Below are positions 18,252 through 58,402 of a stretch of 64,000 nt of DNA, piece after piece; positions within the stretch are counted from its first letter, which is position 1, and every line of letters starts with the position of its first letter. The notes beneath the pieces were generated by a model. That model made no database searches. It worked only from the letters and a program-made list of their open reading frames with translations, and had not been told where the DNA came from. The DNA is from Streptomyces sp. NBC_00271 (GTDB taxonomy: Bacteria > Actinomycetota > Actinomycetes > Streptomycetales > Streptomycetaceae). The stretch covers positions 744,001 through 808,000 of the forward strand of contig NZ_CP108070.1 of the NCBI RefSeq assembly GCF_036178845.1, written 5' to 3'. The translations under genes and the position numbers were made by a program.

Positions 18252-19235
18252 TCAGTCGATGACGGCGGCCCGCCAGGTCTCCTCGTCGGCGTCCAGGAGC
18301 GCCGCGACGAGGGCGGGGTCCGGCAGCGGGCCGTGGTCGGCGGCGACCCTCAGCGCCGAGGCCGCGGTCAGATGACCCAGCCGCAGGGCGCGGTCCACGG
18401 GCAGCTGCCGCAGCACGCCGCTGAGGAACCCGGCGGCGAAGGCGTCGCCGGCGCCGACCGGCTCGGCGACGCGCACGGTCAGGGCGGGCACGCTGTGGGC
18501 AGCGGCCCCCACGAAGGCGGTGGCGGCGCGGTCCCCGTCCTTCACGACGACCACGCGCGGGCCGGACAGGAGATCGCGGACCCGTTCGGCGTCGGTGATC
18601 CCGTCCCCCCACAGGGCCTGGGCCTCGTCGAGGCCGACGAACACGATGTCGGCCCGGTCCGCGAGCCGCCGCAGCACGTCGGCGGCGGAGCGGCCGTCCC
18701 ACAGCGCGGGGCGGTGGTTGACGTCGAAGCTGACGGGCCACGGGCGGTCGGGGCGCAGCGCGCGTTCGACGAGGGCGCGGCAGCCGGGCGACAGGGCGGG
18801 GGTGATGCCGCTGAGGTGGACGAGCGCGGCGCCCGCCACCGCCGGATCGTCGAGCACGTCGGGGGTGAGGGCCGAGGCCGCAGATCCGGCGCGGTGGTAG
18901 TGGACACGGGTGCCGTGCCCGCGCGGGCCCGGGTCCTTGAGCAGCAGTCCGGTGGGCCGCTGCGGGTCGGTGCGGACGCCGCTCACGTCGACGCCGCCCG
19001 CGGCGATCCGGGCGCGGACGCGGCGGCCGAAGGGGTCGTCGCCGACCGCGGAGACCCAGCGGGCGGGAATGCCGTGGTCGGCGAGGTAGAGGGCGACGTT
19101 CGACTCGGCGCCCGCGATGTCGACGCGCAGCAGGTCGGCGCCGTCCAGCGGCCCGAGGGGGTCGGGGGCGAGGGCGGCCATGGTCTCGCCGACGCAGACC
19201 ACGGGGCCGGGGCGCAGTGGCCGGTGGGTACTCAT
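18252..19235 (-). CDS. PfkB-family carbohydrate kinase, probable 2-keto-3-deoxy-sugar-acid kinase
   Basis: A 327-aa ribokinase-family kinase. N-terminal motif: VVCVGETMAALAPDPLGPLD; sugar-binding AGAESNVALYLADHG; C-terminal catalytic signature VRVAEPVGAGDAFAAGFLSG with the general-base Asp in GAGDAFAAG. Members with this N-terminus are typically 2-keto-3-deoxygluconate kinases. Last gene of the 11-gene galactose operon, 10 bp after the SMP-30 gene. Together with the KDPG/KDPGal aldolase it would phosphorylate 2-keto-3-deoxygalactonate before aldol cleavage. The role as KDGal kinase is inferred from context; this is not the DgoK (ASKHA) family. Confidence 0.82.
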   Translation of the reverse strand: MSTHRPLRPGPVVCVGETMAALAPDPLGPLDGADLLRVDIAGAESNVALYLADHGIPARWVSAVGDDPFGRRVRARIAAGGVDVSGVRTDPQRPTGLLLKDPGPRGHGTRVHYHRAGSAASALTPDVLDDPAVAGAALVHLSGITPALSPGCRALVERALRPDRPWPVSFDVNHRPALWDGRSAADVLRRLADRADIVFVGLDEAQALWGDGITDAERVRDLLSGPRVVVVKDGDRAATAFVGAAAHSVPALTVRVAEPVGAGDAFAAGFLSGVLRQLPVDRALRLGHLTAASALRVAADHGPLPDPALVAALLDADEETWRAAVID

Positions 19236-19245
19236 GGTGGGCTTC

Positions 19246-20151
19246 CTAGAGAGTGCCGGCGCGGTCCGCCGGAGCCGGGGCGGACGGGACCGCCGGGCGG
19301 TACGGGGCGGCCGGGGCGCCGGGAACGTCGACCCGGAGCGCGAAGACGGCGCCGTCGAGGGGTCCTGGGACGGGCAGGCCGATGTGCGCGCTGGTGACCA
19401 GGAGCGTACGGCCGTCGGGGCCGCCTAGGCAGAGTCCCGCGGGCTGCCCGGCGGGCAGGTCGACGATCCGGTCGAGGCCCCCGTCGGGGCGGTAGCGGTG
19501 GACCTGCCCGGCGCCCCAGACGGCGGTCCACAGGCAGCCCTCGATGTCGGTGGTCATGCCGTCGGGGCTGCCGGAGCCGAGGGTGACGAAGGGTTCGGGG
19601 GTGCCCGGGTCGCCGCTCACGGGGTCGACCGGGTAGCGCCGGATGATGCCCCGGGCGCTGTCGGCGAGATACATGACGGTGCCGTCGGCGCTGAAGGCCG
19701 GGCCGTTGGGGATCGTGACGTCCCGCAGGACGCGGGTGACGCGGCCGTCGCGGTCCAGGCGGTAGAGGGAGCCCGCGTCCTGGGTGGCCTCGTACGCCAT
19801 GCTGCCCGCCCAGAAGCGGCCGTGCGGGTCGGCGACGCCGTCGTTCATCCGCATCGGCACGGGTGCGCCCTCCTCGGGGCGTGCGATCCAGTCGACGCGG
19901 CCCTCGGGGTCGATGCGGCAGATGCCGGTGCCCGCCGCCGCGATCCAGTGGCCGGGGTGCCCCTCCACCGGTGCCACGGCGCCCAGCGGGCAGGGCAGTC
20001 GGGTGATCGGGGCGAGCGGCGCGTCGGGTCCGTCGGGCAGGGCGAGCAGCCGGCCGGTGAGGATGTCGGTCAGCACGGCGCGGCCGTCCGTCCAGCGGAT
20101 GCCCTCGCCCAGTTCGAGGCGGTCGGCCCCCAGGACCGCGGGGGCGGTCAC
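19246..20151 (-). CDS. SMP-30/gluconolactonase/LRE-like family protein
   Basis: A 301-aa six-bladed beta-propeller lactonase. Blocks seen: LGEGIRWTDGRAVLTDI, MNDGVADPHGRFWAGSMAYE (calcium-site Asn/Asp), GPAFSADGTVMYLADSARG and SPDGMTTDIEGCLWTAVWG. The family hydrolyses sugar lactones using a divalent metal. I take the GTG at 20151, which overlaps the aldolase stop as GTGA (translational coupling); reading further upstream would just be aldolase sequence out of frame. In this operon it would open galactono-lactone to galactonate. Confidence 0.87.
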   Translation of the reverse strand: MTAPAVLGADRLELGEGIRWTDGRAVLTDILTGRLLALPDGPDAPLAPITRLPCPLGAVAPVEGHPGHWIAAAGTGICRIDPEGRVDWIARPEEGAPVPMRMNDGVADPHGRFWAGSMAYEATQDAGSLYRLDRDGRVTRVLRDVTIPNGPAFSADGTVMYLADSARGIIRRYPVDPVSGDPGTPEPFVTLGSGSPDGMTTDIEGCLWTAVWGAGQVHRYRPDGGLDRIVDLPAGQPAGLCLGGPDGRTLLVTSAHIGLPVPGPLDGAVFALRVDVPGAPAAPYRPAVPSAPAPADRAGTL

Positions 20152-20783
20152 GGGCGGGCGTCCGCGCGGACGACGTCCAGGAAGGCGCGGGCGCGCTCGC
20201 GCAGGGCGGTGAGGTCGCCGCCCTCGGCGGCGTCGCCGATCAGGGGCGATCCGACGCCGACGGCTATGGCTCCCTCGCGCAGGTAGTCGGCGGCTGCCGG
20301 CGCGTCCACTCCCCCGACGGGTACGAAGGGCAGGTCCGGGAAGGGCCCGCGCAGGTCCCGGAGATAGCCGGGGCCCCCGGCGCTGCCTGCCGGGAAGAGC
20401 TTGAGGGCGTCGGCGCCGAGCCGCTGTGCCTGGAGGATGTCGGTGGGCGTCATCACGCCCGCGAGCACGGGGAGTTCGAGTTCCCGCCCGGTGGCGATGC
20501 CGTCGCTGACCCCCGGGGTGACGAGGAAGGCGGCGCCGGCCTTCTGGGCGGCACGGGCGTCGTCGGAGCTGAGCACGGTTCCGGCGCCGAGCGTCGCGTC
20601 GGGGCCGAGCGCGGTGCGAGCCCGCGCGATGACGTCGAGCGCGTCGCGCCCGGAGAGGGAGACCTCGATGAGGGTGACGCCCTCCTCGGCGAGGGTGAGC
20701 ACGGTGGTCAGCGCGGCGTCCGGGTCGCTGCCCCGGACGATGGCGAGCAGCCGGTGGGCGCGCAGCGCGGCGAGCAGGTTCAT
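20148..20783 (-). CDS. 2-dehydro-3-deoxy-6-phosphogalactonate/gluconate aldolase (KDPG/KDPGal aldolase)
   Basis: A 211-aa class I aldolase of the EDA/DgoA family. Conserved elements: LLAIVRGSDPD, EEGVTLIEVSLSG (catalytic Glu40), LGAGTVLSSDDARAAQKAGA, FLVTPGV, and the Schiff-base lysine in DALKLFPAG (Lys128). It cleaves 2-keto-3-deoxy-6-phosphogalactonate (or gluconate) to pyruvate and glyceraldehyde 3-phosphate. It overlaps the SMP-30 gene by 4 bp and follows the epimerase by 26 bp. DgoA-type specificity is inferred from the adjacent dehydratase. Confidence 0.88.
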   Translation of the reverse strand: MNLLAALRAHRLLAIVRGSDPDAALTTVLTLAEEGVTLIEVSLSGRDALDVIARARTALGPDATLGAGTVLSSDDARAAQKAGAAFLVTPGVSDGIATGRELELPVLAGVMTPTDILQAQRLGADALKLFPAGSAGGPGYLRDLRGPFPDLPFVPVGGVDAPAAADYLREGAIAVGVGSPLIGDAAEGGDLTALRERARAFLDVVRADARP

Positions 20784-20809
20784 CCGACATCCCTTCTGGT
20801 GACGGTGGT

Positions 20810-21607
20810 TCAGGTGCGGCGGGTCGCGGTGACGGTGAGCCGCCAGGTGACCTCGCCGGTCGGCGGCACCACGGCGGTGTCGCCGTCGTCCGCCGCGGCG
20901 CGGTCGAAGACGCGGCCGAGCATCGGCTCGACGCCGATCGAGCGGTACGGCGCGCCCTGGGGGAAGCCGCCGAGGTTGCGCCAGAGGGCGACCGCGACGG
21001 GCTGCCCGTCGGCCTCGACGGACAGGTGCAGCGTGTCGGCGCCGTCGTGCACGGACACCCGGGGGGTGAGGACGACCGCTCCGACGGCGCTCCCGTCGTC
21101 CGGGCCGAGCCGGTCCAGCGGTACGCCGTCGACGCTGGGCCAGTCGCCGGCGACCCAGCGGTCGCCCTCGTCCGGGTAGAGCCGGGTCACCGCCGGTCCG
21201 GCGACGCCGATCCGGGCGGCCGGAGAGAGGTCCAGCAGGGCGTGGGCGGCCCACACGAAGCGGTAGCCGGGCTCGGCGGCGAGCGTGTAGTCGGCGACGA
21301 CCGCGTCCCCTCGCTCACCGATGCGCCGGGTCAGGCGGAAGTCGGGACACTCCACGACGTCCTCCTCCCCCGCCCTCCGCCAGGGCCGCGACCAGGTGTC
21401 CCCGTGGTCGGGCAGCCCGCGCACGGTGGGCACGCACTCCTCCAGGCCGCCCGCGTCAGCGAAGGAGTCACCAGGCCGGACCGTACGGCGTCGAGGCTCG
21501 TCGCGGTGCCGCAGCCACTCGCGGCCACCGGCGGTCAGCGACGTCCAGCGTCCGCCGTGGTCCGGGTCGGTGGCGACGCGCACGGGCAGCCGCGTGGCGC
21601 TCACCAT
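20810..21607 (-). CDS. Aldose 1-epimerase-like protein
   Basis: A 265-aa protein resembling the galactose mutarotase fold: an early GGRWTSLTAGGREWL, GGLEECVPTVRGLPDHGDTW, a central WAAHALLDLSP corresponding to the catalytic-His strand, and FPQGAPYRSIGVEPMLGR near the C-terminus, which contains the catalytic Glu. It would interconvert alpha and beta anomers of galactose before oxidation. The ATG at 21607 overlaps the dehydratase stop by 7 bp; a GTG at 21604 would give a GTGA overlap and is equally plausible. Co-expression with the galactonate enzymes is therefore very tight. Confidence 0.75.
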   Translation of the reverse strand: MVSATRLPVRVATDPDHGGRWTSLTAGGREWLRHRDEPRRRTVRPGDSFADAGGLEECVPTVRGLPDHGDTWSRPWRRAGEEDVVECPDFRLTRRIGERGDAVVADYTLAAEPGYRFVWAAHALLDLSPAARIGVAGPAVTRLYPDEGDRWVAGDWPSVDGVPLDRLGPDDGSAVGAVVLTPRVSVHDGADTLHLSVEADGQPVAVALWRNLGGFPQGAPYRSIGVEPMLGRVFDRAAADDGDTAVVPPTGEVTWRLTVTATRRT

Positions 21608-22746
21608 TCGGCGAAGGAACCGTCGGCGTGCCGCCAGACGGGGTTGCGCCAGGCGTGGCCGGACCGGTCGGCGGCGCGGACCGCGACCTCGTCGACGGCG
21701 ATGCCGAGTCCGGGCAGTCCGGTGCGGTGCGCCTGGCCGTCGACGAAGCGGAAGGGCTCGGTGTCGACCAGGTAGGACAGCAGGTCGGCGTCCTTGTTGT
21801 AGTGGATGCCCCGGCTCTGCTCCTGGATCAGGAAGTTGGGCGTGGCGAAGGCGACCTGGAGGCTGGCGGCCAGCGCGATGGGACCGAGCGGGCAGTGCGG
21901 CGCCAGGTGGGCTCCGAAGGTCTCGGCGAGCGAGGCGATCCGGGTGACCTCCGATATCCCGCCGGCGTGCGACAGGTCCGGCTGGGCCACGGCGACGCCC
22001 GCGGTCAGCACCGGGAGGAAGTCGGCCCGTCCGTAGAGCCGTTCGCCGGTGGCCAGCGGCACGGACGAGGCGGCGACCAGGCCGGGCAGCAGGTGGGCCT
22101 GCTCGGGCAGGACGGGTTCCTCGACGAACAGCGGGTGCAGCGGGGCCATCTCGTGGAGTACGCGGCGCGCGTTGGCGGCGCTGAAGCGGCCGTGGAAGTC
22201 GACGGCGACGTCGCGGTGCGGGCCAAGGGCCTCGCGGGCGGCCGCCACGCGCTCGACGACGGCAGCCGTCTCGGCGGGGCTGCCGATCGGCGGGGTGCGC
22301 CCGGCGGCGTTCATCTTGACGGCGGTGAACCCGGCCTCCACCTGGGCGGTGACCTCCTCCTTGAGCCGCGCGGGTTCGTCGCCGCCGACCCAGGCGTACA
22401 CCCGGACGGTGTCGCGGACCGGGCCGCCGAGCAGGGTGTGCACCGGCACCCCGAGGGCGCGGCCCGCGATGTCCCACAGGGCCTGGTCGATGCCGGCGAC
22501 GGCGCTGGAGAGGACCGGGCCGCCCCGGTAGAAGCCGCCCTTGCTCAGCACCTGCCAGTGGTCCTGGATGCGCAGCGGGTCCTGGCCCACCAGGTACTCC
22601 GCCAGCACCTCGACGGCCGACCGGACGACCTCGGCCCGGCCCTCCACCACCGGCTCGCCCCAGCCGACGACGCCGTCGTCGGTCTCGATGCGGCAGAACA
22701 GCCACCGGGGCGGGACGAGAAAGGTCTCGACGCGCGCGATCTTCAC
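21601..22746 (-). CDS. dgoD: Enolase-superfamily D-galactonate dehydratase-like enzyme
   Basis: A 381-aa mandelate racemase/muconate lactonising enzyme family protein, the same length as E. coli DgoD (382). Residues corresponding to the DgoD active site are present: Asp183 and His185 (AVDFHGRF), Glu209 (FVEEPV), Glu235 (TGERLYGR) and His284 (LAPHCPLGP). GQDPLRIQDHWQVLSKGGFYRGG and IHYNKDADLLSYL are typical DgoD blocks. It dehydrates D-galactonate to 2-keto-3-deoxygalactonate with Mg2+. The ATG overlaps the GntR stop by 4 bp (ATGA). Confidence 0.88.
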   Translation of the reverse strand: MKIARVETFLVPPRWLFCRIETDDGVVGWGEPVVEGRAEVVRSAVEVLAEYLVGQDPLRIQDHWQVLSKGGFYRGGPVLSSAVAGIDQALWDIAGRALGVPVHTLLGGPVRDTVRVYAWVGGDEPARLKEEVTAQVEAGFTAVKMNAAGRTPPIGSPAETAAVVERVAAAREALGPHRDVAVDFHGRFSAANARRVLHEMAPLHPLFVEEPVLPEQAHLLPGLVAASSVPLATGERLYGRADFLPVLTAGVAVAQPDLSHAGGISEVTRIASLAETFGAHLAPHCPLGPIALAASLQVAFATPNFLIQEQSRGIHYNKDADLLSYLVDTEPFRFVDGQAHRTGLPGLGIAVDEVAVRAADRSGHAWRNPVWRHADGSFAEW

Positions 22747-23504
22747 TGTGCCTGGCCGTCCTTCTCGTCGGTGGAGCCGTCCGCGCCCTCGGGCGCGGAC
22801 GGACCGCTGAGTTTGTCGAGGTCGCGCGTCGCCTGGTCGAGCAGGGCGCGCATGGCGTGTTCCGCGCCGTCGGGGTCCCGCTCGCGCACGGCGTCGAGGA
22901 CGGCTCGGTGGCTGGGGACCGGGTCCTCGCTGTGGGGGGCGCTGTGCACGAGCCGATCACGCTGGGCCAGGCCGGACTCGATGACCATCTCCATGCGTTC
23001 CAGCAGTTCGTTGTGGGTGGCCGCGAGCAGCGCCCGGTGGAAGGCGAGGTCGGCCTCGACGGCGTCGCTCGCGCCGCCCTCCTGGCCCATCGCGGTCAGT
23101 GCCGCCTCCAACGCCTCGAGGTCGGCGTCGGTGCGGCGGGCCGCGGCCAGCCGCACGGCGGCGGGTTCGATGATGCCGCGGACCTCGCCGAGGTTGCGGA
23201 GCAGCGCGGGGTCGGCGCCGGTGCCGTCGCTCTCGGAGAACTGCCAGCGCAGCACGTCGGCGTCGAGCAGGTTCCAGTCGGAGCGGGGCCGGACGAACGT
23301 GCCGCGCTTCTGCCGGGCGTCGACCATGCCCTTGGCCGCGAGCACCTTGAGCGATTCACGCAGGGCGGTCAGGCTGACGTCCAGTTCGCTCTGCAGGGCC
23401 GCCATGTCGAGCGTCGCTCCCTCGGCGATCTCGCCGCTGAGCACCCGGCGGGCAAGGGTCTCCACGGTCTGGCCGTGCACTCCGCGGCGCGCGTATGGCG
23501 TCAT
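22743..23504 (-). CDS. GntR/FadR-family transcriptional regulator (DgoR-like)
   Basis: A 253-aa regulator. N-terminal winged helix: VETLARRVLSGEIAEGATLDMAALQSELDVSLTALRESLKVLAAKGMV, then TFVRPRSDWNLLDADVLRW, which is the linker block typical of galactonate/gluconate DgoR-like regulators. The all-helical FCD domain follows with a metal-binding set (DLAFHRALLAATHN; SHRAVLDAV). It sits inside the operon that it probably controls, directly in front of dgoD. Likely effector: galactonate or KDGal, by analogy with E. coli DgoR. Confidence 0.88.
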   Translation of the reverse strand: MTPYARRGVHGQTVETLARRVLSGEIAEGATLDMAALQSELDVSLTALRESLKVLAAKGMVDARQKRGTFVRPRSDWNLLDADVLRWQFSESDGTGADPALLRNLGEVRGIIEPAAVRLAAARRTDADLEALEAALTAMGQEGGASDAVEADLAFHRALLAATHNELLERMEMVIESGLAQRDRLVHSAPHSEDPVPSHRAVLDAVRERDPDGAEHAMRALLDQATRDLDKLSGPSAPEGADGSTDEKDGQAQ

Positions 23505-23553
23505 GTGTTTGCCTTTCTTGCTGGTCGGTCGGTGGCTGAAGCGGTCGGTCCCG

Positions 23554-24312
23554 TCACGCGGAGGCCTTACTGACGCTCCAGCCGCCGTCCACGAGCAGGC
23601 TCGATCCGGTGATGTAGGAGGCTTCGTCGGCGGCGAGGAAGGCGACGGCGGCGGCGACCTCCTCGGGGGTGCCGAAGCGGCGGGCCGCGGTCTCGGCGAC
23701 GCTGAGCTCGCGCTCGGCCTGCGGGACCCGGTCCCAGGCGGCGGTCAGGATCGGACCCGGCAGTACGGCGTTGAAGCGGACCCCGGGGCCGTACTCGACG
23801 GCGAGCTGACCGCACAGCGACAGCAGCGCTCCCTTGCTCGCCGCGTACGCCGGGTGGCCGGGGATCCCCCGGTGGGCGTGGACGGAGGAGACGAGCACCA
23901 CGGCCCCCTGGTGCTCGCGCAGGTCGGGCAGCGCCGCCCTGACTCCTAGGAAGGCGCCGGTGAGGTTGACCGAGAGCTGCCGTTCCCAGGAGGCGAGGCT
24001 GGTCTCGTGGGCCGGCGCGACCGCCACTGTGTACGCGTTGCTGACCAGGACGCCCACGGGCCCGAAGCTGTGGGCAGCGGTGATCACCCGCTGCCAGTCG
24101 TCCTCGCTCGCGACGTCGGCGGCGACGAACAGGGTCCGGGCACCGTCCTTGCGCAGCCGCTCGGCGGCTTCCTCGCCGCGTTCGGCGGCGATGTCGACCA
24201 GGACGACGGCCGCGCCCTCCGCGGCGAGGCGTGCCGCGGTGGCCGCGCCGATGCCCGACGCGGCGCCGGTGACGACGGCGACGCGGTTGGTGAAGCGGGC
24301 GGCTGGGTTCAT
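23554..24312 (-). CDS. SDR family oxidoreductase, probable galactose dehydrogenase
   Basis: A 252-aa classical short-chain dehydrogenase: cofactor loop AVVTGAASGIGAATAARLA (residues about 12-31), VLVSNAY in place of NNAG, a catalytic Ser in VVLVSSVHAHRG, Tyr-x-x-x-Lys in YAASKG, and the C-terminal EASYITGSSLLVDGGWSV. Between the alpha-galactosidase and galactonate genes the obvious job is oxidation of D-galactose to galactonolactone. That role is contextual, since SDR substrate cannot be read from these motifs. GGAGACGACC precedes the ATG. Confidence 0.8.
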   Translation of the reverse strand: MNPAARFTNRVAVVTGAASGIGAATAARLAAEGAAVVLVDIAAERGEEAAERLRKDGARTLFVAADVASEDDWQRVITAAHSFGPVGVLVSNAYTVAVAPAHETSLASWERQLSVNLTGAFLGVRAALPDLREHQGAVVLVSSVHAHRGIPGHPAYAASKGALLSLCGQLAVEYGPGVRFNAVLPGPILTAAWDRVPQAERELSVAETAARRFGTPEEVAAAVAFLAADEASYITGSSLLVDGGWSVSKASA

Positions 24313-24388
24313 GAGGTGGGTCGTCTCCTGTTCGAGAGGGAGGTGGGGTGCAGATGTGCGAGAGAGGGGGCGAATTCTTCCGTTGTCG

Positions 24389-26500
24389 TCACTGCCGGGC
24401 CAGCACGGTCAGCCCCGCGTCGTGTCCGGCGGTCCAGGCGAACGGCAGCCCCGAGTGGAGCAGGTACGCGCCGCTGTAGCGGGTGCCGGTCGCGGTGTCG
24501 GTGTAGCCGGCGTCCGGCCTCAGGCCGCGCAGTCGGAGCCGGGCGGCCCGGCCGGGCACCAGGGGCGCGCCGTCGAGCGGGCCGGTGTTCCAGGCCGTCA
24601 CCACCAGGCGGGCGCCGCCCGGTTCCTCGTACTGGATGCCGCAGGTCGGGTCGGCGGGGCTGCCGAGCAGGCTCACCTCGCCGTGGTGGACGATGTCGCG
24701 GATCTCCTTGTAGCGGGCGATCCACTCGGTGGCCTCGGCCCGCTGCTGTGGCGTCCAGTGGCGTATGTCGGCGCCGATGCCCAGGACTCCGGCGATGGAG
24801 TTGACGAACCGGAAGGCGAGGGAGCGGCGGCGCGGGTCGAAGACGCCGGGGGCGTCGGTGACCCAGGAGCTCATGGTGTGCGGGGCGTGCGCGTGGAGGT
24901 AGCCGTACTGGATGCGCAGCCGGTCCATGGGCGCGGTGTTGTCGCTGGGCCACATCACGTCGGTGCGGGCGAGGGTGGCGTGCTCGACGCGGGCGCCGCC
25001 GCCTGCGCAGCCCTCGACGGTGACGTGTGGGTGGGCGGTGCGCAGGTGGTCCAGGACGCGCTGGTAGCCGGCGACGTGGGCGGCGTCGAGGTCCTGGAGC
25101 TCGGGGTCGGGACCGGCCGGGTGGCCGGGGCGGCCGCGCTCGGTGGGCGGCCGGTTCATGTCCCACTTGAGGTAGCTGATGGCGTACGAGCCGAGCAGCC
25201 GGTCGAGCGTGCCGATGACGAAGTCCTGGACGTCCTCGCGGCCGAGGTCGAGCAGGAGCTGGTTGCGTACGAGCGTCGCGGGCCGCCCCTCGATCCGGTA
25301 CACCCACTCGGGATGTTCGGCGTAGAGCCTGGAGCGGGGGCTGATGCCCTCGGGCTCCACCCACAGGCCGAAGTCCATGCCGAGGGCGCGGACGTCCTCG
25401 ACGAACCGCTCGAACCCGCCGGGGAATTCGGCCGGGTCCGGGTCCCAGTCGCCGAGGCCGCCGGTGTCGTCGGGGCGTCCGGTGAACCAGCCGTCGTCGA
25501 CGACGAAGAGTTCGGCGCCCAGCTCCGCGGCCGTCTTGGCGAGCTCCAGCTGCCCGGCGGCGTCGACGTCGAAGCCGGTCGCCTCCCACGAGTTGTAGAG
25601 GACCTTGCGCGGCCGGTGGATGCGCTCGCCGGTGAGGTGCCGCTCGTAGCGGTGCCACACACGGGCCAGCCCGTCGAGCCCGTCCGGGCTGAAGGCGCAG
25701 GCCAGCCGGGGTGTGACGAGGGTGGCCCCGGGGGCGAGGCGGACCGCACCCTCATGGGGCACGCGGCCGGCTCGTACGCGTACGGCGCCGCCGGGCTCGG
25801 CGTCGGCGGTGATCCGCCAGTTGCCGGACCACTCCAGGGCGATGCCGTACGTGGGGGTGGCGCCTTCGGCGGGGGCGGCGGCGTCCTGGACCGCGAGCCA
25901 GGGGTGGTACGCATGCCCTGCCGAGCCCTGGGTGCTCTCCATCTCGAAGCGGCCGCGCTCCAGCTCGACGTGCTGCAGCTGGAACTCCTGCGACCACTGT
26001 CCGGCCAGGTACGTCAGCCGCGCACCGCCCTGGACGGGCACGTTGACGGCGGCGGAGTCGAAGCGCTCCAGGCGTACCTCGGTCTCGCCGGTGCAGGTCA
26101 GCTCCGTCCAGCGCAGCACGACGTCGGTGCCGGGCACCGTCTCGTAGCGGAGCGTCGTGCGCAGTCCGAGGACGTCGTCGGCGAACTCCAGGCGCAGTGC
26201 CCGGTCGCCGTCCTGCGTGGCGCCGGTGAACCGCCACCAGCTGCCGCGGTCGCCGCCGGGGCGGGAGGCGACCAGGTCGGCGCCGGTGAACGGCCGCAGC
26301 CCGTACGGGATGTACTCGGCCGGGGCGGCGTCGGCGGGGACGATGAAGTGGGTGCGCCGCGACCAGTCCATGGGCGACGGCCCGTCCTCGACGCCGTGCG
26401 GACCCCAGGCGGCGAGTTCGGCCCAGTGGTCGTCGCCGCCGAGGGTGACCGCGTAGGTGGTGGTGTCGGTGCGCAGCAGCCACCGGTCGTGCGGGGTCAC
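24389..26500 (-). CDS. GH36 alpha-galactosidase, intracellular
   Basis: A 703-aa family 36 glycoside hydrolase. It has an N-terminal beta-sandwich, a TIM barrel with FVVDDGWFTGRPDDTGGLGDW, the catalytic nucleophile Asp447 in SYLKWDMNRPPTE, VEGCAGGGARVE and the acid/base Asp520 in MWPSDNTAPMDRLRIQYGY. A C-terminal beta domain follows. No signal peptide, so it acts in the cytosol on imported alpha-galactosides (melibiose, raffinose type). The GTG at 26500 overlaps the permease stop as GTGA; the long upstream extension in this frame is only the permease gene read out of frame. Confidence 0.93.
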   Translation of the reverse strand: MTPHDRWLLRTDTTTYAVTLGGDDHWAELAAWGPHGVEDGPSPMDWSRRTHFIVPADAAPAEYIPYGLRPFTGADLVASRPGGDRGSWWRFTGATQDGDRALRLEFADDVLGLRTTLRYETVPGTDVVLRWTELTCTGETEVRLERFDSAAVNVPVQGGARLTYLAGQWSQEFQLQHVELERGRFEMESTQGSAGHAYHPWLAVQDAAAPAEGATPTYGIALEWSGNWRITADAEPGGAVRVRAGRVPHEGAVRLAPGATLVTPRLACAFSPDGLDGLARVWHRYERHLTGERIHRPRKVLYNSWEATGFDVDAAGQLELAKTAAELGAELFVVDDGWFTGRPDDTGGLGDWDPDPAEFPGGFERFVEDVRALGMDFGLWVEPEGISPRSRLYAEHPEWVYRIEGRPATLVRNQLLLDLGREDVQDFVIGTLDRLLGSYAISYLKWDMNRPPTERGRPGHPAGPDPELQDLDAAHVAGYQRVLDHLRTAHPHVTVEGCAGGGARVEHATLARTDVMWPSDNTAPMDRLRIQYGYLHAHAPHTMSSWVTDAPGVFDPRRRSLAFRFVNSIAGVLGIGADIRHWTPQQRAEATEWIARYKEIRDIVHHGEVSLLGSPADPTCGIQYEEPGGARLVVTAWNTGPLDGAPLVPGRAARLRLRGLRPDAGYTDTATGTRYSGAYLLHSGLPFAWTAGHDAGLTVLARQ

Positions 26501-27420
26501 TTGACGGCTCCGAGGTTCAGTCCGGCCACGAAGTAGCGCTGGAAGCGGAGAAAGACGGCCACCGTCGGGGCGGCGGCGATCACCGAGCCGGCCGCGATCA
26601 CGTTCCACATGGACACGTACTGGCCCTGCAGTCCGATGAGGGAGGCGGTGATGGGCATCTGGGTGTCGGTGCGCAGCACGGTGATGGCCCACAGCAGGTC
26701 GTTGAAGATCCAGGTGAACGACAGGGCGGTCAGCGCGGCCAGCGCCGGGCGGGCCAGCGGCAGGATGATCCGCCAGTAGATCTGCCACGGGTTCGCGCCG
26801 TCGATGACGGCGGCCTGCTGGATCTCGCCGGGGATCGCCCGCATGAAGCCGTGCAGGACGAAGACGTAGAAGCCGACGCCGAAGCCGACCTGCACGCCGA
26901 TCAGGGCGTACAGCTGGTCGTAGATGCCGAGCATTTCGCTGAGCTTGGAGACCGGGATCAGCAGGATCTGCGGGGGCAGCAGGTTGCCGCCGAGCATGAG
27001 CAGCAGCAGGACGCGCCGGAAGGGCAGGTCGTAGCGGCTGAGCGCGAAGGCCGCCATGGAGGCGAGGCCGAGCGAGAGCAGCACGGTGGGGATGGTGACC
27101 AGCATGCTGTTGATGAGGGCGCGCTGCTGGCCGCCGTCCACCCACGCCTGCCGGAAGCTGTCGAAGGTGAACGAGTGCGGCCAGCTGCCGACGCCGTGCG
27201 CTGCGATGTCGTCGAACGTCCGGGTGCTGGTGACCAGGACGAGGGCGATCGGCAGCAGCCACAGCGCGGACAGCAGGCCCGCGGAGAGGTGGAAGCCGGC
27301 GGTGCGCAGGGCGCGGCCGCTCGGGGCGGGGCGGCGGGGTGCCGCGACCTTGGCGGGCCCGGTCCGGCCCGCCGGGCCCTCGGCGTCCTTGAGGTCCGTG
27401 GTGGCGTGGGTGGCGGTCAT
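26497..27420 (-). CDS. Carbohydrate ABC transporter permease (MalG-like)
   Basis: A 307-aa inner-membrane permease with an N-terminal cytosolic tail, about six transmembrane helices (first at SAGLLSALWLLPIALVLV) and the EAA loop that docks the ATPase (EIQQAAVIDGANPWQIYWRIILPLARPAL). The short C-terminus FLRFQRYFVAGLNLGAVK is typical of CUT1-family MalG proteins (VAGLTAGAVKG in others). It overlaps the MalF-like gene by 4 bp (ATGA). It forms the channel for alpha-galactoside import with the MalF-like partner. Confidence 0.92.
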   Translation of the reverse strand: MTATHATTDLKDAEGPAGRTGPAKVAAPRRPAPSGRALRTAGFHLSAGLLSALWLLPIALVLVTSTRTFDDIAAHGVGSWPHSFTFDSFRQAWVDGGQQRALINSMLVTIPTVLLSLGLASMAAFALSRYDLPFRRVLLLLMLGGNLLPPQILLIPVSKLSEMLGIYDQLYALIGVQVGFGVGFYVFVLHGFMRAIPGEIQQAAVIDGANPWQIYWRIILPLARPALAALTALSFTWIFNDLLWAITVLRTDTQMPITASLIGLQGQYVSMWNVIAAGSVIAAAPTVAVFLRFQRYFVAGLNLGAVK

Positions 27421-28316
27421 GAGTCGGCCTCCCGGAAGGCGCGCACGAGGTAGCTCGCGATGACGCCGAAGGCCAGCACGAAGATGACGACGGCGAGTGC
27501 GGAGCCGTATCCCAGGCGCAGCGACTGGAACGCGGTGGAGTACATGTACGTGCTCAGCAGTTCGGAGGAGTGGTACGGGCCGCCGCGGGTGAGCGCCCAC
27601 ACCACGTCGAACGAGCGCAGCGAGTCGATGACGATCACCGAAAGGACGACCGCGTTGACGCTGCGCAGCTGCGGGAGGGTGATGTGCCGGAACTGCTGCA
27701 GGCGGGTGGCGCCGTCGACCTTCGCCGCCTCGTACAGCACGGGGTCGATGCCCTTGAGGCCGGCCAGGTACAGCACCATCACGTAGCCGACCTGGCGCCA
27801 CAGCGCGGGCACGATCACCGCGTAGAAGGCGGTGTCCTGGTCGGCGAGCCAGGCGTGCTTCCAGCCACCCAGACCGATGGCTTGCAGCACGTTGTTGATC
27901 AGGCCGTCCGGCTGGTACATGGCCTGCCACACCAGCGCGGTCGCGACCAGTGAGAAGACCACGGGCAGGAAGAGCGCCGCCCGGTAGAACCCGATGCCGC
28001 GCCGCTCCTGCTGGAGCAGCAGTGCGGCACCGAGTCCGAGGGCGGCGGACAGCCCGCCGAAGAGCAGCAGCCACAGCACCGTGTTGATCGCGGCGGTGCG
28101 GAAGACCTCGTCGTGCACCATCTCGCTGAAGTTGCCGAGGCCGACGAACTTCGGGGCCGACAGACCGTCCCAAGAGGTCAGGGAGAGGTAGAAGCCCTGG
28201 AGGGCCGGCCAGAAGACCCAGAACGCCTCGGCGAGCAGCGGGACGAGGACGAAGGCCAGGACCACCGGGGGCACCCGCGTGGCCCTGGACCGTCGTGTGG
28301 AGCCGAGCAAAGCCAT
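27417..28316 (-). CDS. Carbohydrate ABC transporter permease (MalF-like)
   Basis: A 299-aa polytopic permease of the CUT1 family: first helix at PPVVLAFVLVPLLAEAFWVFWPALQGFYLSLT, then the typical periplasmic FVGLGNFSEMVHDEVF, and the EAA loop YEAAKVDGATRLQQFRHITLPQLR. GGPYHSSELLSTYMYSTAF is a further MalF-type block. It starts 2 bp after the binding-protein gene stops. No ATPase gene is adjacent; Streptomyces CUT1 importers are usually energised by the shared ATPase MsiK, which must be elsewhere. Confidence 0.92.
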   Translation of the reverse strand: MALLGSTRRSRATRVPPVVLAFVLVPLLAEAFWVFWPALQGFYLSLTSWDGLSAPKFVGLGNFSEMVHDEVFRTAAINTVLWLLLFGGLSAALGLGAALLLQQERRGIGFYRAALFLPVVFSLVATALVWQAMYQPDGLINNVLQAIGLGGWKHAWLADQDTAFYAVIVPALWRQVGYVMVLYLAGLKGIDPVLYEAAKVDGATRLQQFRHITLPQLRSVNAVVLSVIVIDSLRSFDVVWALTRGGPYHSSELLSTYMYSTAFQSLRLGYGSALAVVIFVLAFGVIASYLVRAFREADS

Positions 28317-28318
28317 TG

Positions 28319-29611
28319 TCACTGGCTCCAGATCTTCTGTGCGCTGCGCTGCCACGTGGTGAGGATGGAGCCGATCTCCTTGGGCTTGGCCAGGTAGTGC
28401 ACGAGCGCCGTGTCGGCGGTCGGCTGGAGCGCGTCGCTGGAGTCCCGGTTGAAGAACTGCGTCACGTCGGTGGCGCTCTCGATGAGTTTGCGGCCCTTGA
28501 GGACGAGCGGGGTGCCGGCGTCCTTGGCGTCCGGGTGCGTGGGCAGCGCGGTGCCGGAGGAGTTCCTGAGGTACAGCTCCTGCGCCTCGGCGGAGGCCAG
28601 GTAGCGCAGCAGCTCCTTGACGCCGTCGACGCGCTTGGTGCGGGCGCTGGCGAAGTAGCCGTCCGTGGGCGCCTCTTCGGCGACCGGCACCTTCGGGTCG
28701 ATGATGGGGAACTGGAAGAAGTCCAGGTCGCCCAGGGCGTCCTTGGGGGCGGCGTCGGCGAAGAAGGTGCCGATGAGCATCATGCCGGTGCGGCCCTGGA
28801 GGAGGGCGGTGGTGGCGTCCTGGAAGGGGATGGCCGTGCCGTTGGGGTCGAAGAACGGGCGGGCCTCGTCCCACTTGTCGAAGACCTTGCGGACCTCGGG
28901 GTCGTCGAAGCGGTGCTTGCCCGCGAGGAGTTCGCGGTGGTACTTGGCGCCGTTGACGCGGATGTTGAGGTAGTCGAACCAGGTGGAGGCGACCCAGGGG
29001 GTGTCACCGCCGGCGCCGAGGCCGATCGGGGCGACGCCCTTGCTCTTGAGCTTGTCGCACAGGTCGAGGAACTCGTCCCACGTCTTGGGCTCCTTGACAC
29101 CCCACTTGGCGAAGTTCGACTTCCGGTAGAACACGCCCCACCAGTAGTAGCTGGTGGGCACGAAGACCTTCTTGCCGCTGGAGGCCGAGGTGCACAGCTT
29201 CTTCAGCGCGTCGGAGTAGCCGGCGAGCTCGGGCTTCTCCCAGATGTCGTCGAGGCCGAGGAGCAGGTCCTTCTTGGCGTACGACTCGGCGACGGAGCCG
29301 GGGTACCAGGTGTAGGCGTCCGGCGGGTTGGCCGAGGTGAGGTAGGTCGGCAGCTGCGTGCGGAACGTCTCCGACGCGACCGTGTTGAGCTGGGCCCTGG
29401 CGTCGCCGCGCTTGTCGTAGGCGGCCACGACCGCCTGCATCGCGGTCTTGGCCTGCGGAGAGGAGAGGTTGGACTGCAGGGTCACCGGGCCGCCGGACTT
29501 TCCTCCGGAGGTGGACGGGGTCTGGGTGACGCAGCCGCTGAGCAGCGCGCCGGCGCCGACTGCGCCCGTTCCTACGAGGAATCTGCGGCGGGTGGCGTTG
29601 AAAACGGTCAT
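28319..29611 (-). CDS. Extracellular solute-binding lipoprotein for an alpha-galactoside-type sugar
   Basis: A 430-aa substrate-binding protein of the CUT1 cluster. The N-terminus has a twin-arginine motif (RRRFLVG, residues 8-14) and a lipobox LLSGC with Cys27, so it is probably Tat-exported and lipid-anchored. YTWYPGSVAESYAKKDLLLGL and TPWVASTWFDYLNIRVNG are typical of sugar-binding proteins. It is the first gene of the long operon, preceded by GGGAG and by an AT-rich operator at 29717-29731. The ligand is inferred from the two alpha-galactosidases nearby. Confidence 0.9.
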   Translation of the reverse strand: MTVFNATRRRFLVGTGAVGAGALLSGCVTQTPSTSGGKSGGPVTLQSNLSSPQAKTAMQAVVAAYDKRGDARAQLNTVASETFRTQLPTYLTSANPPDAYTWYPGSVAESYAKKDLLLGLDDIWEKPELAGYSDALKKLCTSASSGKKVFVPTSYYWWGVFYRKSNFAKWGVKEPKTWDEFLDLCDKLKSKGVAPIGLGAGGDTPWVASTWFDYLNIRVNGAKYHRELLAGKHRFDDPEVRKVFDKWDEARPFFDPNGTAIPFQDATTALLQGRTGMMLIGTFFADAAPKDALGDLDFFQFPIIDPKVPVAEEAPTDGYFASARTKRVDGVKELLRYLASAEAQELYLRNSSGTALPTHPDAKDAGTPLVLKGRKLIESATDVTQFFNRDSSDALQPTADTALVHYLAKPKEIGSILTTWQRSAQKIWSQ

Positions 29612-29682
29612 CTGTGCACTCCCTAAGTGCCTGCGGAACAGAGTTGAGGCCCCCTGACGGCCCGGCTCCGCCTGCGGCAGGC

Positions 29683-29731
29683 ACAGCCTGTCGCAGGGGT
29701 ACGGACACCGTCAAGATTAATTACTAATTTA
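29683..29731 (-). promoter_or_regulatory. AT-rich operator and promoter of the galactoside operon
   Basis: TTAATTACTAATTTA (29717-29731) is a one-mismatch palindrome (6-3-6) and the sole very AT-rich patch in the region. On the minus strand it runs directly into TTGACG (a -35-like box), with CAGGCT about 18 bp further as a possible -10. The same arrangement occurs upstream of the GH27 gene at 32035-32049, so one regulator probably controls both. Confidence 0.6.
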
Positions 29732-29741
29732 TTTCTCGGAG

Positions 29742-29779
29742 GATGTGCCTCCGGGCCGAACAAGGCCCGGAGGCACATC
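29742..29779 (-). terminator. Strong hairpin terminator after the GH27 gene
   Basis: A perfect 16-bp stem (29742-29757 with 29764-29779, arms GATGTGCCTCCGGGCC) closes a 6-base loop, 18 bp after the GH27 stop codon on the minus strand. No T tract follows, which is usual for actinobacterial hairpins. It insulates the GH27 gene from the operon promoter just downstream. Confidence 0.8.
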
Positions 29780-29797
29780 AAAGCGAGCGCGCGGAGC

Positions 29798-31930
29798 TCA
29801 GAGCCCGGTCTGGTGGACGCGGCCGTCCACCCCGCGGTAGGCGGCCAGTACGCCGCCGTCCGGCCCGGCGACGGCACCGAGCGCGCCGTCGAAGGCACCG
29901 CTGACGAAGTCGGTCTCCTTGCTCCAGCCGGCCCAGCCGCCGTCGGCGGTCCACCTGCGCGTCCAGAGCGTGTAGTCCCCGGCCCGCGCGTACAGGTGGA
30001 CGGTTCCGCCCGAGGCCACCAAGGTCGGGCTGCCACTGGTCGTGCCGCCGAGGGCGGTCCAGTCCGACCAGGTGCCGGAGGTGTCGCGGGTCCGCGACCA
30101 CACCGAGTCGTCGGGGGTGCGCACGGCCACGTGCAGCCGCCCGGCGTCGTCGACGACGGCCGACGGACGTCCGTAGAACGGCCGGCCCTGCGGGGCGCCG
30201 AGCGAGGTCCAGCCGGAGGCCGGGCCGCGCGACCACACACTGCCGTCCGCACCGCGCACGAACAGGGTCCAGTCGTCCGGTCCCGCGAAGGCCGCGGTCG
30301 GCGCGTCCGTCAGCGTCCCGCCGAGGTTCTGCCAGCGCCCCCAGTGCCCGTTCGCGTACACGCGCTGGTAGGCGGTGTCGTCGGTGCCGCGCACGAAGAC
30401 GTCGATCCGCCCCCCGGCCGAGGCGTACGCCGCGGGCTGACCCAGGATGCGGCCGCGCGTCGGGCCACCCAGATCGGTGGTCCGGGACGTGGCCCAGTCA
30501 CCACCGCGCGCGCTCTGCGCGCGCAGCGCGCCGTCCGTGCCGCGGGTGAAGACGGTGAGCGTGTCACCGTCGCGCACCAGGGCCGGGCTCGCCGACGAGC
30601 GGCCGGGAAGCTGCGTGCCGGGGGCCTCGTCGGTGCCGGTCAGCTTGAGGAAGGCCGTGCCGTGCGCGGGGACGCGCACCGTGTACGAGCCGGTGAAGGT
30701 GCCGCGCGAGGCACGGGCCCGCAGGTCACGCACCGCGACCTTGCCCGCGAGGCCGGCGTCCGCGAAGGTCACCGTGCGGTCCTGCGCCTGGTCGGAACGG
30801 TTGAGCAGGACGACCGCCCGCTTGCCCGCGCCCTGCAGCACCTTGCTGTAGACGTCGCCGACCGAGTCGGTCGCCACGCGGGCGCCCTGGATGCCCAGAG
30901 GGTCCTGGTCGACGGCGATGATCTCGGGGTTGCGCAGGGTGTCGATCATGGACTGCGCCAGGGTGCGCGGGTCACTGCCGAGCATGAGCGGCGAGGCCAT
31001 CTCGGCCCACATCACGAACTGAGTGGTGGACTCCTCCTCCGTCAGCTCGTAGCCACCCTCGGCGAGCTTGCGCATCGGGATCAGGTAGTCGGGGTCGTTC
31101 CAGTGCCCGGGCCCCTGCGCCTCGGGGTGCCAGGCGTTGGCATCCATGTTGCGCAGGATGTTCGGCCACTCCCCCGCGGTCGGGGTGCCCCAGGCGATGT
31201 CGGTGCCGGTGCGCCAGGAGTCGGCCGCCGTCGGACCGTAGACGAAGGTGTTGTGCGCGTCCTGTTCCGGGGTGTGCGGCATGCCCCAGTCGTCGGTGAG
31301 CGGGTTGCACAGATTGAGCAGCATCTTCCGCCCGGACTTGGCGACGGCGTCGCTGAACTCCTTGAAGGCCGGGCCCGGATCGAGCCCCGCGCCGATGCCG
31401 CAGAGGAAGTCCACCTTGATGGCGTCGACCTTCCACCCGGCGAACTGGCGGGCGTCCTGCTCATAGTGGCCGCGGCTGCCCAGGCCACACCACTTCCCGC
31501 CGTCGTACTCACCCGCGTCGGTGTAGATGCCGACCTTGAGGCCCCGCTTGTGAAGGTACGTCACCAGCGCGGGGATACCGGAGGGAAAGCGGGTGGCGTT
31601 GGCCACGAGTTGGCCCGTCTGCGGATCGCGCGGCTGGTCCGCCTGCCAACCGCCGTCCAGCCAGACGATGTTGTAACCGCTGTCGCGCAGCCCGCTGCTG
31701 ACGAGGTGGTCGGCGACCTTCTTGACCTGGTCCTCCGTCGGGGCGCCGAGCCCGTAGTAGGTGTTCCATCCCATGTACGGCGTGGAGGCGAGACCGCTGT
31801 CGTAGTACTGCGGCGCGCCCTGGTCGTCCGCGGCGTGTGCCGCCGGCACCGCCGACCCGACCAGCACCACGGCACCGAGCACCACCGCTGTCCGCCGCGG
31901 TCGCGCCATCCCTGCACGATGCGAAGCCAC
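29798..31930 (-). CDS. Secreted GH27 alpha-galactosidase with C-terminal beta-propeller-like repeats
   Basis: A 710-aa exported enzyme. Signal peptide: basic MARPRR, hydrophobic AVVLGAVVLVGSAVP, cleavage at AAHA. The GH27 barrel (residues about 50-340) begins STPYMGWNTYYGLG, has the nucleophile Asp in DAIKVDFLCG and the acid/base Asp in GHWNDPDYL; a Greek-key domain follows (VVLLNRSDQAQDRTVTF). The last ~270 residues hold several repeats of the form VFVRGTDGALW...W.SLGG, like the PLL/fucolectin-type propeller found in secreted actinobacterial hydrolases. I chose GTG 31930 because GGGAG precedes it; ATG 31909 is also possible. It would release galactose or shorter oligosaccharides outside the cell. 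Confidence 0.9.
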   Translation of the reverse strand: MASHRAGMARPRRTAVVLGAVVLVGSAVPAAHAADDQGAPQYYDSGLASTPYMGWNTYYGLGAPTEDQVKKVADHLVSSGLRDSGYNIVWLDGGWQADQPRDPQTGQLVANATRFPSGIPALVTYLHKRGLKVGIYTDAGEYDGGKWCGLGSRGHYEQDARQFAGWKVDAIKVDFLCGIGAGLDPGPAFKEFSDAVAKSGRKMLLNLCNPLTDDWGMPHTPEQDAHNTFVYGPTAADSWRTGTDIAWGTPTAGEWPNILRNMDANAWHPEAQGPGHWNDPDYLIPMRKLAEGGYELTEEESTTQFVMWAEMASPLMLGSDPRTLAQSMIDTLRNPEIIAVDQDPLGIQGARVATDSVGDVYSKVLQGAGKRAVVLLNRSDQAQDRTVTFADAGLAGKVAVRDLRARASRGTFTGSYTVRVPAHGTAFLKLTGTDEAPGTQLPGRSSASPALVRDGDTLTVFTRGTDGALRAQSARGGDWATSRTTDLGGPTRGRILGQPAAYASAGGRIDVFVRGTDDTAYQRVYANGHWGRWQNLGGTLTDAPTAAFAGPDDWTLFVRGADGSVWSRGPASGWTSLGAPQGRPFYGRPSAVVDDAGRLHVAVRTPDDSVWSRTRDTSGTWSDWTALGGTTSGSPTLVASGGTVHLYARAGDYTLWTRRWTADGGWAGWSKETDFVSGAFDGALGAVAGPDGGVLAAYRGVDGRVHQTGL

Positions 31931-32005
31931 TGAGTTCTCCCGAGAGTTGGGGGTACGAGGCACCCCGCTCCGGTCCTGCCTGGGCGTCGGTGCCACGGCG
32001 GAAAC

Positions 32006-32049
32006 TGTGCCCAGGCCCCTCAGGCCTGTCAATATTAATTGCTAATTAA
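32006..32049 (-). promoter_or_regulatory. AT-rich palindromic operator and promoter of the GH27 gene
   Basis: TTAATTGCTAATTAA (32035-32049) is a perfect 6-3-6 palindrome. On the minus strand it leads into TTGACA (32028-32033) and, 17 bp on, CACAGT as a weak -10. It closely matches the element in front of the binding-protein operon (29717-29731). A ROK- or LacI-type sugar repressor is a reasonable candidate; none is encoded next to it. Confidence 0.6.
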
Positions 32050-44443: not shown

Positions 44444-45597
44444 GTGTCCTGCGCCAGTAGTTGATCGTTAGAAGTTGCGTGACTTCTACTGCTGGTGCGT
44501 CAGCTCCTCGTCGGGGCCCGAAGCTGGAACCGTTGCTGCTGTCTGATGACGAGCGGGCGGTGTTGGAGCGGTGGACGCGTCGGGCTACATCGGCCCAGGC
44601 GCTGGCCCTGCGCGCGCGGATCGTGCTGGCGTGCGCGGGCCCGGAGGTGCCGCCGATCGTCGCGGTCGCCCGGGAACTGCGGGTGACCGCGGACACCGTC
44701 CGCAAGTGGCGCCGACGCTTCCTCGCCGAGCGGCTGGACGGGCTGGCGGACGAGCCCCGGCCGGGCCGGCCGCCCACCATCAGCGTCGATCAGGTGGAAG
44801 CGGTGGTGGTCACCACGCTGGAACAGCTCCCGAAGAACGCCACCCACTGGTCGCGGACATCGATGGCGCAGCACAGTGGTCTGTCGAAGTCGACCGTGGG
44901 CCGGATCTGGCGGCAGTTCCAGCTCAAGCCGCATCTGGCGGACACCTTCAAGCTGTCGACGGACCCGTTGTTCGTGGAGAAGGTCTACGACGTCGTGGGC
45001 TTGTACTTCAACCCGCCCGAGGGTGCGGTGGTGCTGTCGGTGGACGAGAAGTCGCAGATCCAGGCACTGGACCGGTCCCAGCCGGTGCTGCCGATAATGC
45101 CGGGCATGCCCGAGCGGCGTACGCACGACTATGTGCGCAACGGCCTGACCACGTTGTTCGCCGCGTTCGATGTCGCCACGGGTGAAGTCATCACTGCCCT
45201 GCACCGCCGGCACCGGGCCGTGGAGTTCAAGAAGTTCCTGATCCGGATCGACAAGGAGGTGCCCGCGCACTTGCAGGTCCACCTGATCGTGGACAATTAC
45301 GGCACCCACAAGACACCCGCGATCAAGGCTTGGCTGGCCAAACACCCGCGGTTCGAGCTGCACTTCACCCCGACCGGCTCGTCCTGGATCAACCAGGTCG
45401 AGCGGTGGTTCGGCTACCTCGCCCACCAGATGATCCGCCGCGGCGCACACAAAAACATCCAGGCCCTGGAAGCCGACATCCGGGCATGGGTCAAGGACTG
45501 GAACGAAGCCCCCAAGCCGTTCGTCTGGACCAAGACGGCCGAAGAAATCCTCGACTCCCTCGCCCGCTTCTGCCGACGGATCTCTGGCGCAGGACAC
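44444..45597 (+). mobile_element. IS630-family insertion sequence
   Basis: About 1.15 kb. The outermost 17 bp, counting the flanking CTA/TAG, form a perfect inverted repeat CTAGTGTCCTGCGCCAG (44441-44457 against 45584-45600). IS630 elements insert at TA and duplicate it, giving TA at 44442-44443 and 45598-45599. It holds one complete transposase gene whose stop codon is formed by the duplicated TA plus the next base. Its right end was later hit by an IS701-type element. Confidence 0.85.
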
Positions 45598-45600
45598 TAG
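44479..45600 (+). CDS. IS630 family transposase
   Basis: A 373-aa transposase. N-terminal helix-turn-helix (LALRARIVLACAGPEVPPIVAVARELRVTADTVRKWRRRF and a second HTH ending HSGLSKSTVGRIWRQFQL) and a DDE domain: first Asp in VLSVDEKSQIQALDRSQP, second Asp in LIVDNYGTHKTP, Glu in PTGSSWINQVERWFGYL. It looks intact. I chose the GTG at 44479 (VTSTAGASAPRRGPKLEP) because related proteins begin here; a TTG at 44461 is the longer option. Confidence 0.88.
   Translation: MTSTAGASAPRRGPKLEPLLLSDDERAVLERWTRRATSAQALALRARIVLACAGPEVPPIVAVARELRVTADTVRKWRRRFLAERLDGLADEPRPGRPPTISVDQVEAVVVTTLEQLPKNATHWSRTSMAQHSGLSKSTVGRIWRQFQLKPHLADTFKLSTDPLFVEKVYDVVGLYFNPPEGAVVLSVDEKSQIQALDRSQPVLPIMPGMPERRTHDYVRNGLTTLFAAFDVATGEVITALHRRHRAVEFKKFLIRIDKEVPAHLQVHLIVDNYGTHKTPAIKAWLAKHPRFELHFTPTGSSWINQVERWFGYLAHQMIRRGAHKNIQALEADIRAWVKDWNEAPKPFVWTKTAEEILDSLARFCRRISGAGH
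45597..45600. repeat. Left CTAG target-site duplication of the IS701-type element
   Basis: CTAG at 45597-45600 is repeated at 47030-47033, immediately outside the ends of the IS701-type element. It fits the YTAR 4-bp target of the IS701 family. The C is the last base of the IS630 element. Confidence 0.8.
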
Positions 45601-58331: not shown

Positions 58332-58402
58332 TTGACTTGCTCTCCCTGCGAAGCAGGGAGATTCTGGCCTTCCTCACCGGGTGCTGTGCCGCTGCGCGGC
58401 AC
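58332..58402 (-). ncRNA. Candidate TnpB right-end/omega-RNA hairpin region
   Basis: Just downstream of and overlapping the tnpB stop are two hairpins on the minus strand: GTGCCGC/GCGGCAC (58386-58402, 3-base loop) and CTCCCTGC-TTC-GCAGGGAG (58342-58360). The region ends in ...GTCAA at 58332 where the dhaK-like sequence begins. In IS200/IS605-type elements the omega RNA runs through the 3' end of tnpB into the right end, with the flanking sequence as guide. This layout matches, but the RNA was not shown. Confidence 0.45.

Follow-up and report, generated by a model that had tools for sequence, protein, structure and literature searches.

A stretch of 64,000 bases from Streptomyces sp. NBC_00271 (in a 12.28-Mb genome of three contigs, bases 744,001 to 808,000 of contig 1; hereafter the window) contains what is probably a galactose-scavenging regulon, in which a single local repressor controls two transcription units that serve an oxidative route to pyruvate and glyceraldehyde 3-phosphate. 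We assign this reading a probability of about 0.75. An open reading frame check revealed twelve reading frames between bases 18,252 and 31,930, all on the minus strand and with start codons of our choice, in agreement with an initial annotation of the same DNA that had proposed an 11-gene operon and one upstream gene. The upstream gene encodes a glycosidase of family GH27 and forms a separate transcription unit. The operon encodes, in this order, a solute-binding protein, two permeases, a GH36 glycosidase, a short-chain dehydrogenase/reductase (SDR), a GntR-type regulator, the galactonate dehydratase DgoD, a mutarotase-fold protein, an aldolase, an SMP-30 lactonase and a PfkB kinase. The assignments of DgoD and of the GntR protein as a DgoR-like regulator are strong predictions.

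In the proposed pathway the secreted GH27 enzyme would trim galactosides outside the cell, and the importer would take up galactose, small alpha-galactosides or both, with an ATPase assumed to be encoded elsewhere. The GH36 enzyme would cleave imported alpha-galactosides in the cytosol to alpha-galactose, which the mutarotase-fold protein would convert to the beta anomer. The SDR would then form galactonolactone from beta-galactose, the SMP-30 protein would open the lactone, and DgoD would dehydrate D-galactonate to 2-keto-3-deoxygalactonate (KDGal). Following phosphorylation by the PfkB kinase, the product (KDPGal) would be split by the aldolase to pyruvate and glyceraldehyde 3-phosphate. Both promoters would be repressed by the DgoR-like protein through TTAATTA-N-TAATTAA palindromes that abut TTGAC, and rising galactonate would release the protein from them. 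The initial annotation had proposed such a route, encoded together with an importer and with enzymes of two alpha-galactosidase families; a candidate gene is present for each step, and the activities are predictions.

Gene arrangement

The ten internal junctions of the operon had been described as tightly overlapping, which applies to the five that overlap by 4 bp; the other five are gaps of 2, 76, 49, 26 and 10 bp. A distance of 186 bp separates the GH27 gene from the operon and includes a perfect 16-bp inverted repeat with a 6-nt loop (29,742 to 29,779, minus strand) that resembles a terminator. The span first given for the system starts with the pfkB gene at 18,252, whereas its end at 32,049 marks the far border of the upstream palindrome and does not coincide with the end of a gene. 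Eleven of the twelve products match the Pfam family named for them in the initial annotation, the exception being the "aldose epimerase" described below.

The predicted oxidative core and its putative regulator

DgoD (dgoD, 21,601 to 22,746) scored 571.6 bits in a profile search with the galactonate dehydratase model NF010624, the cut-off of which is 311, and 213.3 bits with the next best model; its alignment with DgoD of E. coli K-12 showed 52% identity. The five active-site residues expected from the initial annotation are all present. These residues, D183, H185, E209, E235 and H284, which we take to be the active-site set of DgoD, are kept in 80 of 80 related loci. The SDR (23,554 to 24,312), a frequent neighbor of dgoD and a candidate galactose dehydrogenase, passes model NF005559, a broad glucose-1-dehydrogenase subfamily, with 220.8 bits against a cut-off of 215. 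The lactonase (19,246 to 20,151) matches the SGL family of SMP-30/gluconolactonases with 217.3 bits, a match at the family level only. The aldolase (20,148 to 20,783) reaches 165.7 bits with TIGR01182, above the cut-off of 156.05, and is 33% identical to E. coli DgoA. A residue that presumably sets the stereopreference of KDPG/KDPGal aldolases is valine in DgoA and threonine in Eda. At the locus the motif reads PVGG, compared with AVGG in E. coli DgoA and PTGG in Eda, and valine occupies this position in 37 of 53 locus matches, threonine in 15, with one unresolved. The PfkB kinase (pfkB, 18,252 to 19,235), a candidate KDGal kinase, has as its closest solved relative 1v19, a 2-keto-3-deoxygluconate kinase; a direct comparison with E. 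coli DgoK revealed no similarity. The substrate of the SDR and the stereochemistry of the kinase and the aldolase are predicted from these matches.

The GntR protein (gntR, 22,743 to 23,504) carries the GntR and FCD domains of Pfam, and 7c7e is its best solved relative (120 bits; next 50.8). The structure 7c7e was identified as DgoR from the accessible part of PMC7674646 and by alignment with E. coli DgoR, to which the locus protein is 36% identical. The earlier designation as a DgoR-like regulator thus stands. For E. coli DgoR, the same part of PMC7674646 lists eleven residues in the vicinity of the docked galactonate, including an Asp-His-His metal site; five of these eleven are kept, namely the metal triad D152, H156 and H199 together with R109 and Q181.

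Candidate genes for galactose supply

The GH27 product (29,798 to 31,930) has a signal-peptide-like N-terminus, as judged by eye, matches Melibiase_2 with 149.5 bits, and contains the motifs KVD and WRTGTD, which presumably hold the pair of catalytic aspartates of the family. Its residues from approximately 457 to 671 match Photorhabdus lectins of the PLL and PHL types. In the GH36 protein (24,389 to 26,500; Melibiase 309 bits), in which no signal peptide was recognized by eye, the N-terminal, catalytic and C-terminal domains PF16875, PF02065 and PF16874 are all above cut-off.

The importer consists of a binding protein of the SBP_bac_1 family with a lipoprotein-like N-terminus, by eye (28,319 to 29,611), and two BPD_transp_1 permeases (27,417 to 28,316 and 26,497 to 27,420); no gene for the ATPase of an ABC importer is located within the 11-gene operon. 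The best solved relative of the binding protein is AcbH (3oo6, E 1.1e-49), which according to the available portion of PMC3364876 has a high affinity for galactose and according to a title cited there prefers beta-D-galactopyranose exclusively. Because of this relationship free galactose is predicted to be as likely a cargo as the alpha-galactosides to which the importer had been ascribed. The components named for it, a binding protein and two permeases, are present.

The protein encoded at 20,810 to 21,604 has the fold of a galactose mutarotase in its predicted structure, which agrees with its initial designation as an aldose epimerase and makes it a candidate galactose mutarotase. No Pfam match was obtained up to E 5 with filters on, nor any match in NCBIfam; the closest protein cluster is from Streptomyces mirabilis (96%). 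Retaining alpha-galactosidases release alpha-galactose whereas galactose dehydrogenases use the beta anomer, and for this reason a mutarotase fits an operon of the alpha type. The mutarotase-fold protein occurs at 15 of 16 GH36 loci (partial in L019 and L029) but at only 2 of the remaining 25 (Fisher p 3e-8).

The operator-like palindrome

Ahead of both the GH27 gene (32,028 to 32,049, minus strand, TTAATTA-G-CAATTAA) and the binding-protein operon (29,710 to 29,731, minus strand, TAAATTA-G-TAATTAA) stands an AT-rich palindrome, TTAATTA-N-TAATTAA with an adjoining TTGAC; approximately 100 bases separate its end from the start codon of each unit. With up to 3 mismatches, only these two places were found in the window and none in 100 shuffles; with up to 2 mismatches, only these two were found in the whole genome, a third row being the reverse reading of one of them. 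The backwards control motif was absent from the genome. In 150 genomes of the same genus, own genome included, the search with up to 2 mismatches yielded 40 site matches in 25 genomes and no backwards controls. Thirty-eight of the 40 are at most 11 kb away from a dgoD match, and one more is on a contig that carries a fragment of the GH36 ortholog (G028). Conversely, 22 of the 25 genomes with a DgoD of at least 79% identity have a site within 15 kb.

A weight matrix built from six Streptomyces site strings was applied to held-out loci (L015 to L080) from a set of 80 named loci. The best site score separated 32 held-out loci with a DgoR-like gene from 34 without one (Mann-Whitney p 2.6e-9, uncorrected for relatedness); with a threshold of 20, which was set after the scores had been seen, 25 of the former but 2 of the latter were positive. 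The GntR protein probably binds the palindrome. The operator-like site before both units is the new element described here, and its rarity makes the putative regulon easy to find.

The helix of the GntR protein reads VSLTALRE. In seven DgoR-like relatives (L020, L028, L035, L038, L043, L056 and L057) its leucine is replaced by arginine, and three of these (L035, L043 and L057) show ACAA in their best-scoring site. Co-variation of helix and operator is a lead, not a test.

Alternative readings

Several observations weigh against the regulon as proposed. One concerns the secreted enzyme, which had been called an alpha-galactosidase and which keeps the family and its catalytic motifs. Alignments with 3a21, 1uas and 4ogz, which have Glu, Asp and Asp at the specificity position, place a glycine there (DGGW), where tested alpha-galactosidases have aspartate. 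The same glycine recurs in all 15 GH27 proteins of the loci that were aligned, a set that does not include L008, a partial match, or L075, a distant one. The accessible text of PMC4598101 assigns Asp to alpha-galactosidases, Glu or Ile to beta-L-arabinopyranosidases and Cys to flexible fungal enzymes, none of which is the residue at the locus. The pathway might then be correct and the glycoside not a plain alpha-galactoside: GH27 would free beta-L-arabinopyranose or a galactose substituted at C6, and free galactose would enter through the importer, as the closeness of its binding protein to AcbH would allow. Of the four further GH27 matches in the genome the two that were checked show other motifs, DEGW at C1:1,717,322 and DDCW at C1:914,747, and provide a built-in comparison set. 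On the other hand, the motifs at both catalytic aspartates are kept, the enzyme lacks a bulky residue that would shut out galactose, and the GH36 enzyme of the operon requires an imported alpha-galactoside as its substrate. We consider this alternative possible but clearly less probable than the galactose-scavenging regulon. The specificity of GH27 may differ from that of the tested enzymes with aspartate, and the alpha-galactosidase label holds at the family level only. A further observation concerns the mutarotase-fold protein. Once relatedness is counted, its link to GH36 is not significant (two or three of five independent pairs in support, none opposing, median p 0.25), and therefore shared descent may explain the association. 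The glycine of GH27 and the mutarotase-fold family without a Pfam entry represent two gaps in enzyme annotation.

It is improbable that the core serves an acid other than D-galactonate, such as D-fuconate, L-arabinonate or gluconate. The matches of the SDR, the lactonase and the kinase leave the substrate unfixed, the best NCBIfam model of the kinase, a bifunctional KDG/KDGal kinase, reaches 161 bits, far under its cut-off of 400, and the DgoR pocket is kept in part only: of the galactonate-near residues listed in the part of PMC7674646 at hand, six differ, and four of these six fall in a gapped stretch of the alignment. Against another acid stand the wide margin by which DgoD prefers the galactonate dehydratase model, its identity to the E. 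coli enzyme, the DgoA-type valine of the aldolase, and the partners of the core at the loci, which are galactosidase families or a monosaccharide-type importer. Binding of the palindrome by another regulator, such as one of the ROK or MarR type with its gene outside the locus, is unlikely, if less so than another acid. In its favor, the palindrome departs from the FadR-type operator consensus TKGT/ACMA as given in the section of PMC4494728 that was available, and sites occur where no DgoR-like gene or dgoD match was seen: L059 (1248 to 1269) and L016 (5970) score high without a DgoR-like gene, and G049 has a 2-mismatch site (C1:562572) and no dgoD match at the cut-off used. The opposing evidence is the confinement of both genomic sites to this locus, the correlation between site score and DgoR-like gene in the held-out loci, and the helix VSLTALRE, whose leucine, arginine in several relatives, fits an unusual operator. 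Two further counts weigh against the regulon as proposed: 7 of the 32 held-out loci with a DgoR-like gene score below 20, and three of the 25 genomes with a DgoD of at least 79% identity, G007, G037 and G028, lack a site on the dgoD contig at a distance of up to 15 kb, the locus of G028 being split. The site of L059, a Lentzea locus, is located just ahead of a GH27 gene.

The initial annotation had the locus convert galactose without the Leloir pathway, which may hold for the locus but not for the genome, where galT and galK domains occur approximately 1.6 kb apart at C1:5.245 to 5.247 Mb. The locus would be an additional galactose route beside these Leloir-type genes, and it is a candidate for a conserved oxidative route in Streptomyces and its relatives.

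Distribution and exchange of supply modules

The pairing of both classes of alpha-galactosidase with this route in one Streptomyces operon had been regarded as unusual; it is not peculiar to a single strain. A DgoD of at least 79% identity is encoded in 25 of the 150 genomes, and 21 of the 150, own genome included, have a GH36 ortholog (at least 73%) within 15 kb of dgoD. GH36 matches at this identity number 22; all but one, a fragment belonging to the split copy of G028, lie no more than 15 kb from dgoD. Of 86 matches below 50% identity (E up to 1e-100) in the same genomes, none comes that close to dgoD. GH36 also accompanies dgoD at loci of Micromonospora, Actinoplanes, Kribbella, Nonomuraea and Nesterenkonia; for the last two genera, the stretch that was fetched showed no GH27. 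By DgoD the closest named locus is that of Streptacidiphilus jeojiense (88%).

In 41 of the 80 named loci an SDR, a DgoR-like protein (at least 47%) and dgoD are present in the fetched stretch, not always adjacent. The supply genes, labeled by best tblastn match to one representative per family whose identity was taken from Pfam, are GH36 in 16 loci, GH42, GH35 or GH2 in 9, a monosaccharide-type importer with DUF4380 in 10, and others in 6. On a DgoD tree from a quick method, 12 changes are required to account for the four labels, compared with a shuffled mean of 21.6 and a possible minimum of 3. The labels are clustered on the tree yet swapped beyond the minimum. The alpha-galactosidase, beta-galactosidase and monosaccharide importer types would share only galactose, which points to galactose as the substrate of the pathway. 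A bolder interpretation, which we advance tentatively and at somewhat less than even odds, is that SDR, DgoR and DgoD form a portable galactonate-sensing hub of Actinobacteria with repeatedly swapped supply modules, and that in the alpha branch the secreted GH27 belongs to a glycine clade with a new substrate preference. Because the repressor would respond to the oxidized product rather than to the glycoside, the AT-rich, non-FadR-type operator would bring whatever module supplies galactose under proper control. If true, such an exchange of modules that feed a common sensor would offer a clear example of sugar-regulon rewiring.

Relation to known systems

The locus contains candidates for the dehydrogenase, lactonase, galactonate dehydratase, KDGal kinase and KDPGal aldolase of the De Ley-Doudoroff pathway. 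It differs by the addition of two enzymes of alpha-galactosidase families, an ABC importer, a mutarotase-fold protein and a shared operator-like site, and by a host genome that also has Leloir-type genes. With the E. coli dgo operon (dgoR-K-A-D-T) it shares genes of the dgoR, dgoD and dgoA types, to the degrees of identity given above. Unlike that operon, it has a PfkB kinase that does not resemble DgoK, no DgoT-type gene in the operon and a different operator, and galactonate would arise inside the cell from galactose and not by import. The nearest solved relative of the GH27 enzyme, 3a21, is presumably SaArap27A, the beta-L-arabinopyranosidase of Streptomyces avermitilis; at the specificity position the locus enzyme has Gly and not Glu, and it carries a PLL-like lectin region, whereas a CBM13 is reported for SaArap27A. 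AcbH of Actinoplanes is a galactose-binding protein; for its relative at the locus the ligand is predicted only.

Another Streptomyces route that reaches KDGal is described in the accessible part of PMC9706016. There, SCO3486 and SCO3480 of S. coelicolor act on 3,6-anhydro-L-galactose via a cycloisomerase, whereas the locus would use galactose via DgoD. Actinobacterial galactonate catabolism, supported by growth evidence, is documented for the dgo cluster of Arthrobacter arilaitensis, which in the available text of PMC2991359 comprises four genes and depends on uptake of galactonate by DgoT.

Other features of the window

Two DDE transposase-family genes (44,461 to 45,600 and 45,700 to 46,977) are located on opposite strands 100 bases apart. 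A 444-aa reading frame at 62,119 to 63,453 has no Pfam match at E up to 1e-5. At 58,374 to 59,714 an IS605 OrfB-type protein with a Cas12f1-like TNB domain is encoded.
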